Positions 5,942-39,312 of a stretch of 64,000 nucleotides of DNA are shown in pieces. The stretch's first letter is position 1, and each line of letters starts with the position of its first letter. The notes under the pieces are model-generated. The model was not told the origin of the DNA. It worked only from the letters and a program-made list of their open reading frames with translations, and did no database searches. This DNA comes from Promethearchaeota archaeon (GTDB taxonomy: Archaea; Asgardarchaeota; Lokiarchaeia; Sigyniarchaeales; SOKP01), in contig JAEOTP010000071.1 of assembly GCA_016839765.1 (NCBI GenBank), forward strand, positions 1-64,000. The letters run 5' to 3'. A program made the translations under genes and the position numbers.

Positions 5942-6700
5942 ATGGATGATACCGATAATGGATATGCTATAGTTATAGAAGATTTAGTAAAAAAATATGA
6001 TGATTTAATAGCGGTTGATGGATTAAATCTTGAAATTAAAAGTGGAGAATTATTCGGTCTTTTAGGACCTAATGGCGCGGGCAAAACTACCACAATTAAT
6101 ATTCTTAATGGTTTACTAAAGCCAACCAAAGGAACTGCATTCGTTGCTGGATATGATGTAAAAAAAGATCTTAATAACATTAAAGAATTGATTGGAGTAT
6201 GCCCTCAAGAAGCTGCTCTTTACAAATTTCTTACCGGACGAGAAAATCTTGAACTATTTGGAAACCTAAATGGAATGCCAAAAAATAAGATAAAAGAGAG
6301 AATGGATTATCTTTTAGAGTTATTAGATTTTGAAGAGGATAGTAGAAGAAAGGTTAAAGGATATAGTGGAGGGATGCTTCGCAAGTTAAATATGCTTGTT
6401 GCATTGATTCACGATCCAAAAATAGCATTTCTTGATGAACCAACCGTTGGAATGGATCCTAGAGCTCGTAGGAAGGTTTGGGAATTTATTGGATCTCTTA
6501 AAAGCCAAAACAAAACCATCATTTTAACAACTCATTATATCGAAGAAGCTGAAGCTCTCTCGGATAGAGTTGGCATTATTGATTATGGTGAACTTATTGC
6601 GCTTGGTACTCCAAAAGAATTAATGGAAAAACATGAAGCTAAAAATTTAGAAGAAGTATTTCTTAAAATAACGGGTAGAAGAATATTGGAGGGGATTTAA
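5942..6700 (+). CDS. ABC transporter ATP-binding protein (drug/ABC-2 type)
   Basis: A 252-residue ATPase with Walker A GPNGAGKT (42-49), signature YSGGM (141-145), Walker B IAFLDEP (161-167) and H-loop His198. The sequence EPTVGMDPRARRKVWEFI is typical of ABC-2 exporters (CcmA/drug-resistance group). It ends 2 nt before the permease gene, so the pair is one operon and the proteins should assemble as an exporter in the cytoplasmic membrane. The substrate is unknown. Confidence 0.9.
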   Translation: MDDTDNGYAIVIEDLVKKYDDLIAVDGLNLEIKSGELFGLLGPNGAGKTTTINILNGLLKPTKGTAFVAGYDVKKDLNNIKELIGVCPQEAALYKFLTGRENLELFGNLNGMPKNKIKERMDYLLELLDFEEDSRRKVKGYSGGMLRKLNMLVALIHDPKIAFLDEPTVGMDPRARRKVWEFIGSLKSQNKTIILTTHYIEEAEALSDRVGIIDYGELIALGTPKELMEKHEAKNLEEVFLKITGRRILEGI

Positions 6701-6702
6701 AA

Positions 6703-7434
6703 ATGAAAATGCAAAAAACATTAGCTCTTGTGAAAATGGAATTAAAAAAAATAATAAGAGAACCAGCTTATTTATTTTTAATGATTTTATTTCCCGCTGT
6801 ACTCACTCTGGTGTTTGGTTTGGCTTTTGGATCTCCTCAATTTAATTATATGGCACCAGGATTATTCGCTTATGCTTGTATTTTTATAATTATGATTGTA
6901 GCTCAATCATTTAGCGATGATCGTGAGCAAGGACTTTTAAAGAGGATAAATATAACTCCTACTACATCTGGAGAATTCATGGGCAGCCATATTATTTCAA
7001 ATACATTACTTTCCATCTTTCAGGTAGCAATTGTTGCCGTTTGCTCACTCATTATAGGTTTCCGGCCGAAAGGAGGTGCTACAGGATTCTTATTAGCATT
7101 TGTCCTCATAATTGTTCTATCTATATGTTCTGTTGGATTTGGGCTGATAACTGCTAGCGTAGCAAAAAGTGCGGGAACAGCCACTGGATTATCATTTATT
7201 TTTATACTTCCACAGATGTTTTTTGGAACGTTTATTCCTCTAAATGATGCAACAAGGATGATTGCGTATTTTCTACCGAGTTATTATGCTACTGATGCAT
7301 TAAATCTGATTTTTCTCGAAGGAGTTCCTTTAACAGAATTAACAATTTGGATCGACCTAGGGATCTTATCAATAATGAGTGTTGTAATTGTCCTTCTCGG
7401 CATATTATTATTTAAAAAATATGGAAAAGCGTAA
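6703..7434 (+). CDS. ABC-2 type permease
   Basis: The 243-residue protein has six hydrophobic segments. The pattern is a cytoplasmic N-terminus with KKIIREPAYLFLMILFP, a central SDDREQGLLKRINITPTT loop, then PQMFFGTFIPL, as in ABC-2 membrane domains. A GGAGGGGAT Shine-Dalgarno overlaps the end of the ATPase gene and supports the ATG at 6703. It is the partner of the upstream ATP-binding subunit. A T-rich stretch follows at 7450-7470. Confidence 0.87.
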   Translation: MKMQKTLALVKMELKKIIREPAYLFLMILFPAVLTLVFGLAFGSPQFNYMAPGLFAYACIFIIMIVAQSFSDDREQGLLKRINITPTTSGEFMGSHIISNTLLSIFQVAIVAVCSLIIGFRPKGGATGFLLAFVLIIVLSICSVGFGLITASVAKSAGTATGLSFIFILPQMFFGTFIPLNDATRMIAYFLPSYYATDALNLIFLEGVPLTELTIWIDLGILSIMSVVIVLLGILLFKKYGKA

Positions 7435-36048: not shown

Positions 36049-36738
36049 TTGGTTTCAAAAGAACAAAAAAAGCTGGAACGCGTTATTAATTTTATGAAAA
36101 AGGGCTTGACTTCTTTATCAGATGATCTTGGGGAAACTGTTAAAGGGATTAATGATTTTATAAAATCTTTAAATAAAGCTATGAAAGATTTAAAAGAAGT
36201 AAAAGTTGAAGCTGAAGTTCAAACAGTTAGTACTTCCTCTAAAATAGTTGCAACGCCGGCTACTGGTAATGTTAAAACGGCTGCTGCGAGTACATTATTT
36301 AATTTATTAAGTGGAGGGAAAACACCAGTTCAAGCACCAACTACTGCTAGTGCTAGTCCTGGACTTCCTAAACCTCCTATAGCTGGAGCTCCAAAGGCTC
36401 CTCCTAGCGGTGGTGGTCCTCCAAAAGCACCACCAGGTGGCAGTCCTCCAACGCGTACTAATTTACCTCCAGCTCCAAAACTACCACCAGTATCAGGAAG
36501 TGGTGCTCCTCCTGTCGCTCCAAGTGGCGGGGTAGTAAAAGCACCAACATTTGCAAAACGAACCGGCCCCCCTGCAGCTCCTACCAGTGGCGGTCCACCA
36601 AGAGCTCCTGGAGCAGTGCCTCCCGTAGCACCAGCAGGATCAAGTGTCGCACCAAGAGCAGGAGGAGGTTTAAGTTCCTTAAGAGATGAGATGCTTGAAG
36701 AATTAAATCGTTTAAAGAAAATAATGAGAGGAGAATAA
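36049..36738 (+). CDS. Proline-rich protein with N-terminal helical domain, next to actin homologue
   Basis: 229 residues in three parts. Residues 1-58 are an amphipathic helical, coiled-coil-like region. Residues 93-203 are a Pro/Ala/Gly-rich linker with many PP and PPxAP units (GAPKAPPSGG, NLPPAPKLPPV, GPPAAPTSGG). Residues 207-227 form a short amphipathic helix (LRDEMLEELNRLKKIMRG). No known family, but the plan resembles eukaryotic WASP/VASP-type proteins in which poly-proline recruits profilin; Asgard profilins are known to interact with poly-proline. The actin homologue is one gene away on the same strand. Codon composition is GC-richer than neighbours because of Pro/Gly/Ala codons. Start TTG 36049; AGAGGA 12 nt before. 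Confidence 0.7.
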   Translation: MVSKEQKKLERVINFMKKGLTSLSDDLGETVKGINDFIKSLNKAMKDLKEVKVEAEVQTVSTSSKIVATPATGNVKTAAASTLFNLLSGGKTPVQAPTTASASPGLPKPPIAGAPKAPPSGGGPPKAPPGGSPPTRTNLPPAPKLPPVSGSGAPPVAPSGGVVKAPTFAKRTGPPAAPTSGGPPRAPGAVPPVAPAGSSVAPRAGGGLSSLRDEMLEELNRLKKIMRGE

Positions 36739-36836
36739 GCAAAATATAATTTTTCTTTTATGTAATAACTCCTATTTTTTATTGCTCTAATTATTTTCAG
36801 AAAGTTTTTTATTTCTATAAGAAGTGATTATAATAG

Positions 36837-37583
36837 ATGGAGAAAAAACATTATATCCTATGTGAAAATAAAATCCCTATTGTTGTTCCTAAAAGGTTAA
36901 TGGTTTTTGCGGGACATCCTGATGATGAAATCATATCATGTGGCGGGACGATACTTAAATATCAAGAATTAGGGTCTGAAATTATAATAGTAATTGCTAC
37001 CAGTGGTTTAGGAGGATATACTAAGAAATTAGACAAACCCAAGATTTTAGAACATCGTAAAAATGAGCTAAAATTAGTTGAAGATATAATAAAAGCTAAA
37101 ATAATTGATTTAAATTATTCAGATATTGAAATTAATAGGAAAAAGATATCCAAAATTACAAATTTAATACGAGATTGGCAACCACAAGTTATATTAATTC
37201 CTCATTTTTCGGATTTTCACCGTGTGCATCGTAATTTATCATTAATTACCCGTGAATCGATATATCATTGTTCAAGTGGAAAAGCGTATGGAGGTCATGA
37301 AAGAAGTTGGACTCCTTATGGAGTGTATTACTATGAATCTCCATCTTGTAAGTTTCAATATATTGATGCTTCAGTTTTTGTAATTGTCGATATAGAATAT
37401 TATTGGAATAGGAAGAAACAGATATTTAATCAAGTCTATGAATCGCAAAAAGAAGTACTCGAGCGGGTAATAGAATGGGCAGAAGACACAGCAATCTTAA
37501 GAGGGAATGAAATCAATTCGAAATATGGTGAAGCATATATTCCAATGACTGAATACACACCACTTAAAATCCTTTTGGTTTAG
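36837..37583 (+). CDS. PIG-L/LmbE-family deacetylase
   Basis: 248 residues with the zinc motif AGHPDDE (26-32) and the following SCGGTILKYQELGSEI, plus a later His in PHFSDFHRVHRN. The family removes N-acetyl groups from GlcNAc-type substrates (GlcNAc-PI, mycothiol or bacillithiol precursors, chitobiose). The substrate is unknown here. It lies between the proline-rich and actin genes with about 100-bp gaps; a functional link with them is not evident. Confidence 0.85.
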   Translation: MEKKHYILCENKIPIVVPKRLMVFAGHPDDEIISCGGTILKYQELGSEIIIVIATSGLGGYTKKLDKPKILEHRKNELKLVEDIIKAKIIDLNYSDIEINRKKISKITNLIRDWQPQVILIPHFSDFHRVHRNLSLITRESIYHCSSGKAYGGHERSWTPYGVYYYESPSCKFQYIDASVFVIVDIEYYWNRKKQIFNQVYESQKEVLERVIEWAEDTAILRGNEINSKYGEAYIPMTEYTPLKILLV

Positions 37584-37698
37584 ATTGCTAAAACTGAGGT
37601 ATATTTCACTGAAAATTTTATTAGTATAAAAATAAATAAATTAATTGATTATTAAATCAAAAGAATATGTAAACGAATTCCGATTCTAATTTGAAATT

Positions 37699-38814
37699 AT
37701 GGGAAATTTAACTGTTGTTCTCGATCTAGGATCCTTCGCCACAAAATGTGGTTTTGCTGGAGAAGATATGCCATCTCAGGTTTTTTTTACTATTGTTGGA
37801 ACTCCTAAATACCAACAAATCGATTTTGATTATGGAGGCGCAAAAACCGAGGAATTTTATGTAGGAGATGAAATCCAATCGTTAGGCCTCTTTAAAGTTC
37901 TTTATCCTATTGAAAAGGGAAGAATACAGGATTGGATATCGTTTGAAAAGATTATTGATTACATTTTTTACAACCTTCGAGTAGATCCAAGTTTAGTTAA
38001 TATTCTTTTCGCTGTCCATCCTTTATTTCCCCAGCAAGATTTAGCTCGATTATTTGAATTATTTTTAGAACACTATCAATGTATGGCATTTTATCCAGTA
38101 TTAGATTCAATGCTACCACTATACTCAGGAGGATTTCAGACAGGTTTGGTTGTAGAAATCGGTGATAGTCTTACTAGAATTGTACCAATTTATGAAGGGT
38201 ATAAGCTAGATCATGCAATTCGGATTTTAGAATTGGGTGGTAGAACCTTGACCAGATATATGGAAAAAATCCTAGGGGAGATTGGATTCTCTGCTGACTC
38301 ATCGATAAGACGAGAATTAGTTAGGGCACTGAAAGAAAAAGCATGCTTTGTATCCTTAGACTACAAGGAAGATCTTAAGCGTGTTGAGCAATATGAGAAG
38401 CCTTATTCATTACCTGATGGCTCTACTATTAAATTAAGTGGAGAACGATTTAAGGTTCCAGAACTTTTTTTTAATCCTTCTTTAGAACTTGAAGAAGACT
38501 CATTACCTAAAGCGATAATGGATGTAATAGAAGAATGTGATGTTGATATCCGTCCAGAATTATTAAATAATATATTTTTATCTGGAGGATCTTCAATGTT
38601 CCCTAATTTAAAGTCGCGAATTCATCAAGAGTTAGAATTAGAATTAGCAAAAAGAAAGAAAAAAGGTCAAATTATCAAAATCATTGCACCTAGAGAACGG
38701 GTTTTTTCTGTATGGGTTGGAGGGTCGATTTTATCTATGTTACCAGAGTTTCAAGATTTATGGGTTACAAGAACTAAATATTTTAATGAAGGTATCCCAG
38801 AAGACCTGTTATAA
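37699..38814 (+). CDS. Actin-family protein (divergent Asgard actin / Arp-like)
   Basis: 371 residues aligning along almost all of actin: LDLGSFATKCGFAGED (8-23), FYVGDEIQS, LYPIEKGRIQDW, VEIGDSLTRIVPIYEGY (152-168), LSGGSSMFPN (294-303) and FSVWVGGSILSML (336-348). Several catalytic or sensor positions differ: Gln137 of actin is Asp136, His161 is Arg160, Asp154 is Glu153 and His73 is Lys73. The D-loop is about three residues longer and lacks the hydrophobic tip. The last actin residues are altered (NEGIPEDLL). This is more divergent than the highly conserved lokiactins, so it is probably an Arp-like paralogue with changed nucleotide hydrolysis or polymerisation. Confidence 0.92.
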   Translation: MGNLTVVLDLGSFATKCGFAGEDMPSQVFFTIVGTPKYQQIDFDYGGAKTEEFYVGDEIQSLGLFKVLYPIEKGRIQDWISFEKIIDYIFYNLRVDPSLVNILFAVHPLFPQQDLARLFELFLEHYQCMAFYPVLDSMLPLYSGGFQTGLVVEIGDSLTRIVPIYEGYKLDHAIRILELGGRTLTRYMEKILGEIGFSADSSIRRELVRALKEKACFVSLDYKEDLKRVEQYEKPYSLPDGSTIKLSGERFKVPELFFNPSLELEEDSLPKAIMDVIEECDVDIRPELLNNIFLSGGSSMFPNLKSRIHQELELELAKRKKKGQIIKIIAPRERVFSVWVGGSILSMLPEFQDLWVTRTKYFNEGIPEDLL

Positions 38815-38946: not shown

Positions 38947-39312
38947 ATGGAAGAATTTCAGAACAGTAATTATGATCAATCGAAAATGTTAAAAAAATAT
39001 TTTAAACCTGATTACTCAGGTTTGTTTAATAAAATCAAAAATATAAAGGTCCCTGTAAAAAATGAAATTTTAATAGGGTTATTAGACGGCAATTGGCATT
39101 CAGAACTGGATTTAATTCGAATAGCAAAACGTCAACAAAAGTACATGGGTGCTGTTACGTTAGGTATGATGATAAACTCATTAAACAACGTATTAAAGAA
39201 TGATTATGTTGAAAAAAGAATGATAGATGGGAAACTATATTATAAAATCAGTGATAATTACGTTGGATTAACACGTGCTGCGTTTAATAAATATAAATTT
39301 AAATTAGATTAA
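38947..39312 (+). CDS. Putative winged-helix protein
   Basis: 121 residues. Residues about 45-112 have the look of a winged helix: EILIGLLDGNWHSELDLIRIAKR, then a helix with VTLGMMINSLNNVL, and a wing-like YVEKRMIDGKLYYKISDNY. The first 40 residues are polar. No specific family is recognised. It follows the actin gene (132-bp gap) in the same direction and is convergent with the topoisomerase gene. ATG at 38947 with GGTG about 13 nt upstream. Confidence 0.6.
   Translation: MEEFQNSNYDQSKMLKKYFKPDYSGLFNKIKNIKVPVKNEILIGLLDGNWHSELDLIRIAKRQQKYMGAVTLGMMINSLNNVLKNDYVEKRMIDGKLYYKISDNYVGLTRAAFNKYKFKLD

Follow-up and report, generated by a model that had tools for sequence, protein, structure and literature searches.

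The small protein encoded beside an actin-family gene in the 64,000-nucleotide stretch of Asgard DNA analysed here (the window) ends in a helix that recurs on otherwise unrelated Asgard proteins. This C-terminal tail, rather than the prolines that precede it, is the best conserved part of the protein and its unexpected, more interesting feature. As a whole, the protein is best explained as a multivalent tether carrying a docking helix, a reading to which we give about even chances, and we refer to it as the tether. The tether gene, its parts, and its neighbors are as follows.

36049..36738, plus strand: tether gene (coiled coil, Pro-rich segment, and tail), an ORF with a TTG start encoding 229 amino acids
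36058..36198, plus strand: N-terminal helix, residues 4 to 50, a heptad coiled coil, from AlphaFold2 and periodicity
36271..36309, plus strand: short conserved helix, residues 75 to 87, with the TAAASTLFNLLSGG motif, from alignment A2 and AlphaFold2
36325..36663, plus strand: Pro/Ala/Gly-rich linker predicted to be disordered, residues 93 to 205, 30% Pro with no run longer than PP
36463..36489, plus strand: linker motif LPPAPKLPP, in 27 of 37 members
36661..36735, plus strand: shared C-terminal tail GGGLSSLRDEMLEELNRLKKIMRGE (helix 208 to 227), from conservation in 31 homologues and profile matches elsewhere
36837..37583, plus strand: PIG-L deacetylase gene (Pfam PF02585, 3e-20), kept in 16 of 23 loci
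37699..38814, plus strand: divergent actin-related protein gene (Pfam PF00022, 3.6e-89)
38947..39312, plus strand: gene for a 121-amino-acid protein with no Pfam match, directly after the actin-related gene and kept in 21 of 23 loci

An AlphaFold2 model of the single tether chain, computed with 31 homologues as input, contains helices at residues 4 to 50 and 208 to 227 (pLDDT of ~90 for both), a shorter helix at residues 75 to 87, and disorder between this and the C-terminal helix. Model and composition bear out the helical N terminus, proline-rich linker, and C-terminal helix described in the initial annotation of this DNA, a description from which the short helix with the TAAASTLFNLLSGG motif was absent. 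A full-length search found the tether family in 72 of 97 related Asgard genomes, other classes of the phylum included; the named matches were Lokiarchaeota/Lokiarchaeia assemblies. The helix-linker-helix plan is constant across the family throughout the phylum, and the suggestion that the protein is native to Asgard archaea is supported. Many of the related genomes are incomplete metagenome assemblies in which absences can be contig breaks; the absence of the tether from G019, for example, coincides with a contig end just beyond the actin-related gene. Codon differences from homologues in the family are mostly silent, with 239 synonymous and 37 nonsynonymous differences in the tail (24 homologues) and 268 and 103, respectively, in the N-terminal helix (16 homologues). 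This pattern and the conservation across Asgard genomes argue that the ORF is not a chance one. No relative was found in the viral contigs searched, and Pfam and PDB sequence searches returned no convincing match of the tether family or its tail to a eukaryotic family. We found no description of either in the open-access literature, subscription journals and preprints being outside the scope of the search.

In the N-terminal helix, which is a canonical coiled coil, hydrophobicity across the alignment has its maximum at a period of 3.5 to 3.6 (permutation p = 0.0002); six consecutive heptads place I13, L20, L27, I34, L41, and L48 at a positions, and the d positions are M16, L23, T30, F37, and A44. 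From this helix and its heptads we infer that the protein oligomerizes. In the alignment of 31 tether family members, the invariant residues are M1 and, in the tail, L211, M215, E218, R221, and K223. The linker is variable in length and sequence and keeps its composition, with 30% Pro over 113 residues in the window protein, whereas complete ORFs at related loci have a median of 3.8%. The motif recognizable in 27 of the 37 members has the form [LM]P[PA][AP]PK[LM]PP. A tether paralogue (L130, in G076) has the N-terminal helix and the tail with few prolines between them, which indicates that the Pro-rich linker is not obligatory.

The tail has the consensus LRxEMLxELxRLKxIM. A profile (A1) was built from 13 tails, twelve from the tether family and one from a zinc-finger protein recovered by the full-length tether search, and was run on 25 genomes. 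It matched unrelated proteins at E values of 1e-8 to 1e-5 per genome, among them Ras-like GTPase proteins (1.5e-8 and 1.8e-5), a Sec23/24-like VWA protein (6.3e-7), a Zn-ribbon protein with two copies of the tail (1.5e-6), and a transmembrane-anchored P-rich protein (2.7e-6); a 151-amino-acid Zn-ribbon protein of the window's own genome matched at 5.0e-4. The reversed profile gave no match below an E value of 0.06 in the same 25 genomes. A broader profile (A4), which was trained partly on proteins found with A1 and is circular for those, detected the tail in 84 of 97 genomes.

Across Asgard genomes, the tail is found in at least seven protein contexts: the tether family, transmembrane-anchored helical and P-rich proteins of other classes, Zn-ribbon proteins, Ras-like GTPases, Sec23/24-like proteins, DUF4140/MuiA-like proteins, and single cases with a UBR-like zinc finger or LRR repeats. 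It often lies at the extreme C terminus behind a Pro- or Gly-rich stretch and occupies an internal position in Zn-ribbon, Sec23/24-like, and LRR proteins; some proteins (L123 and L224) have two clear copies. The tail is thus a module common to unrelated Asgard proteins. Its reuse and its invariant charged and hydrophobic positions suggest that the helix docks on a shared partner, and it is probably a common plug for one such partner, possibly actin itself.

The tail-bearing families differ in how the helix is placed. The Zn-ribbon protein of the window's genome, encoded at 1228-1683 of L094 (minus strand; G000:C6), has the shared helix at residues 42 to 64 and, like its family, an invariant CPxC...CCxC; its AlphaFold2 model sets the helix apart from a confident Zn core, and a PDB fold search with it gave no match with an E value of ≤0.001. 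Proteins of other Asgard classes (L118, L120, L121, L225, L226, and L227) combine a membrane anchor, a helical region, a linker that is often Pro rich, and the tail. The Sec23/24-like VWA proteins of Lokiarchaeia (L122 and L214 to L217) have the helix ~64 residues before the C terminus, and the DUF4140 (mucoidy inhibitor A-like) proteins (L218 to L221 and L127) have a tail variant at the end, followed by a basic KRTQR-type segment.

The tether, PIG-L, and actin-family genes follow one another on the same strand with 960 bases between the first and the third, as initially annotated. An actin-related gene lies downstream of the tether gene on the same strand in all 24 loci of the window's taxonomic family and is the best-kept neighbor there. 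Where the flank sufficed, it was retained in 23 of 23 loci, compared with 21 of 23 for the 121-amino-acid gene, 16 of 23 for PIG-L, and 10 to 14 of 24 for the upstream genes. Its retention in just those 16 loci marks PIG-L as a dispensable bystander; where it is missing and nothing else is inserted, 126 to 235 bp separate the tether and actin-related genes. Since some loci of the family have unrelated genes between the two, some of them on the opposite strand, the pair is not a strict operon. A third member of the group may be the 121-amino-acid protein (38947-39312), encoded directly behind the actin-related gene in 21 of 23 family loci.

Outside the taxonomic family, the tether and actin-related genes were not adjacent in the sampled loci, where the tether neighbors were housekeeping-type or unrelated genes and no common partner was found among them. 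In G066 and G064 (f2), the closest relative of the actin-related gene (52 and 57% identical, respectively) shares a contig with the tether gene, at a distance of ~43 and ~71 kb. Three genomes (G078, G080, and G094) have a tether with no orthologue of the actin-related protein among their actin-family matches, so the tether cannot depend on this protein everywhere. The actin association is real, as gene adjacency within one taxonomic family only. The initial annotation had tied its proposal to conservation of the linker and of the neighbor: the neighbor and the overall plan are conserved, with adjacency in the one family, whereas the linker is conserved in composition and one short motif and is otherwise variable. 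At loci L055 and L056, from two genomes of family f2, the tether gene is immediately preceded by a divergently oriented gene for a Ras/Rab-like small GTPase (~6250-6811, minus strand).

The window's genome has five actin-family genes, of which the tether's neighbor ranks third by score. Described earlier as an actin homologue, it does belong to the actin family but is a degenerate actin-related protein rather than Lokiactin (G000:C55:5423-6535), to which it is 43% identical. In the alignment with Lokiactin, the equivalents of Q137, D154, and H161 are D, E, and R. These are catalytic positions, given by actin numbering, and the protein is probably ATPase poor. Its C terminus reads EGIPEDLL, compared with an HRCF end in Lokiactin. 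The protein has close relatives in two families of the order. Elsewhere, at G053:C1 623795-628314, ~3 kb separates an ESCRT-III gene from a divergent actin-related gene.

The multivalent tether would work as follows. The N-terminal helix would form a coiled coil, the Pro/Ala/Gly-rich segment, predicted to be disordered, would serve as a flexible spacer that projects the tail, and the C-terminal helix, shared as described above, would be a portable docking helix for one common partner. Several docking helices displayed from one coiled coil could then gather or cross-link that partner. We regard the part of this proposal that concerns a tether with a docking helix as somewhat better than an even prospect. 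The likeliest partner would be the hydrophobic groove of Lokiactin or of the neighboring actin-related protein; an actin-family protein is our leading guess for what the tail binds, at less than even odds.

The closest functional analogue appears to be arcadin-2, a Pyrobaculum regulator of the archaeal actin crenactin that binds the hydrophobic groove of crenactin with its last 17 residues (PMC5173319), as the tail might bind its partner. In arcadin-2, an unstructured linker joins the core to a small, conserved helix at the C terminus, and the gene lies in an actin cluster (PMC5173319). Compared by description, the tether shares that plan, and its gene likewise has an actin-family neighbor in all 24 loci of its own taxonomic family, although not in the sampled loci outside it. 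The two differ in that the arcadin-2 contacts involve Trp and the tether tail has none, that the arcadin-2 tail is not reported on other proteins whereas the tether tail is shared, and that the arcadin-2 linker is not described as Pro rich. By analogy, the tether would be a flexible adaptor with a terminal docking helix on an arcadin-2-like plan, and not a member of Ena/VASP, WASP, or arcadin-2.

The alternative that survives best is a tether unrelated to actin, in which the synteny reflects an inherited gene order and the tail has its docking site on another hub, for example in trafficking. The differing neighbors in the sampled loci outside the taxonomic family and the trafficking-type domains (Ras-like and Sec23/24-like) of other tail proteins would fit such a role. 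However, within the family the actin-related gene is far better kept than other neighbors, even as the intervening PIG-L gene is lost and unrelated genes are inserted, and we consider this alternative possible but on the unlikely side. Co-occurrence with actin, ESCRT-III, and Vps4 does not discriminate between tail-bearing and tail-less genomes; actin and Vps4 are found in both alike. A bolder extension of the docking-helix reading would make the LRxEML helix a phylum-wide docking code, a functional counterpart of WH2 through which Ras-like GTPases, Sec23/24-like proteins, membrane-anchored Pro-rich proteins, and the tether would all dock onto Lokiactin or a related actin. We hold it to be rather unlikely.

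An unlikely alternative is that the tail binds itself, forming a homotypic or mixed helical bundle that joins tail-bearing proteins in the manner of VASP tetramerization. The strongly amphipathic character of the tail, its invariant charges, and the two clear tail copies in some proteins agree with this, and one tail (L126) matches Pfam VASP_tetra with a best E value of 0.0014. That match is the only one among 23 tails, and none was seen in 31 tether family members; moreover, the tether already has a coiled coil at its opposite end. As an isolated match in one tail of another protein (E = 0.0014), it was rejected as a sign of VASP_tetra membership.

The tether is like Ena/VASP in its Pro-rich arm, in a coiled coil suited to oligomerization, and in a Gly-led helix that recalls the F-actin-binding (FAB) motif. 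The tether differs in having no EVH1 domain (there is no Pfam WH1 match, and residues 4 to 50 form the coiled-coil helix), no GPPPPP repeats, and its coiled coil at the opposite end, and the tetramerization domain PF08776 matched 0 of 31 members. The tail profile was scored post hoc against 17 eukaryotic motifs from ~14 motif families. Of the 17, the FAB motifs of Mena and VASP scored best (composition-shuffle p of 0.002 to 0.013), and 0.1 to 0.5% of native 26-mers scored as high as the three FABs. With ~14 motif families tried, the resemblance is suggestive only. FAB is not an actin groove-binding motif. A VASP FAB peptide had no match in the PDB. The WH2 and MIM1 motifs scored below FAB, and the scores of WASP-family WH2 motifs were ordinary. 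With the WASP/WAVE/WIP proteins, the tether shares a helical N terminus, a Pro-rich linker, and a C-terminal amphipathic helix. WH2 (PF02205) gave no Pfam match in 31 tether members or 23 tails, and a WH2/WASP assignment was rejected on the LKK spacing, which does not fit, and the ordinary score; the tether has no central-acidic region. Membership in CCDC53/WASH was likewise rejected: PF10152 matched one member only, at E = 0.012 and 16.5 bits against a cutoff of 24.6.

It is improbable that the tail is instead an ESCRT adaptor, a MIM1-like helix for the Vps4 MIT domain, with LPPAPKLPP as a MIM2-like site. The tether resembles the MIM helices of ESCRT-III and CdvA in having a short terminal helix behind a flexible linker with an E-phi-x-K-L-K core. 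The C-terminal short helix of Asgard ESCRT-III has the core E-phi-x-K/R-L-K/R in common with the tail and often follows an LPxxP-like motif, and the membrane-anchored tail protein L227 weakly matches the CdvA coiled coil (E = 0.0023). However, the tether has no ESCRT-III fold, the LRxEML half of the tail is absent from ESCRT-III, and the similarity is no higher than to generic helices: the tail profile scores ESCRT-III tails at 10.9 bits and charged helices of unrelated proteins at 10.8 to 10.9. Eukaryotic MIM1s score weakly against the profile, and G083 and G090 have ESCRT-III and no tail. The striking visual match of the core failed against the charged-helix decoys, and MIM1/ESCRT is kept only as a rival.

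The initial annotation proposed that the protein recruits profilin. "Poly-proline" is a loose term for a linker that is 30% Pro and whose longest run in the window protein is PP; runs of more than two prolines are absent from 29 of 37 members, and a run of five prolines (such as GPPPPP) is found in 0 of 37. Loki and Odin profilins are reported not to bind polyproline (for Loki profilins, VASP polyproline), and heimProfilin (Heimdall LC3) and thorProfilin bind a VASP peptide weakly, with a Kd of 0.2 to 0.5 mM (PMC8410842). Pfam profilin matches were found in 40 of 97 genomes and, with a model insensitive to divergent Asgard profilins, not in the window's genome at E ≤ 0.01; three profilin-like proteins are reported in Lokiarchaeum ossiferum (PMC9834061). 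A profilin-recruiting actin elongation factor, whose Pro-rich segment gathers profilin-actin, would suit a 30% Pro linker beside an actin-family gene in an organism group that has actin and profilins, two of which bind the VASP peptide weakly, but we judge it very improbable given the short Pro runs, the Loki and Odin profilin reports, the missing Pfam match (from an insensitive model), the degenerate actin-related neighbor, and the paralogue (L130) that keeps coil and tail despite few prolines.

Apart from profilins and gelsolins, to our knowledge, few proteins native to Asgard archaea are known to regulate their actin cytoskeleton. The tether, small, conserved in many of these genomes, and encoded next to a relative of actin, is a concrete candidate for one. 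The tail common to otherwise unrelated Asgard proteins points to one hub, which could be fished out with a single 25-residue peptide, and it makes the organization of eukaryote-like proteins in Asgard cells directly testable. If the helix is a docking code for actin shared across the phylum, trafficking and the cytoskeleton would have been linked before eukaryotes arose.
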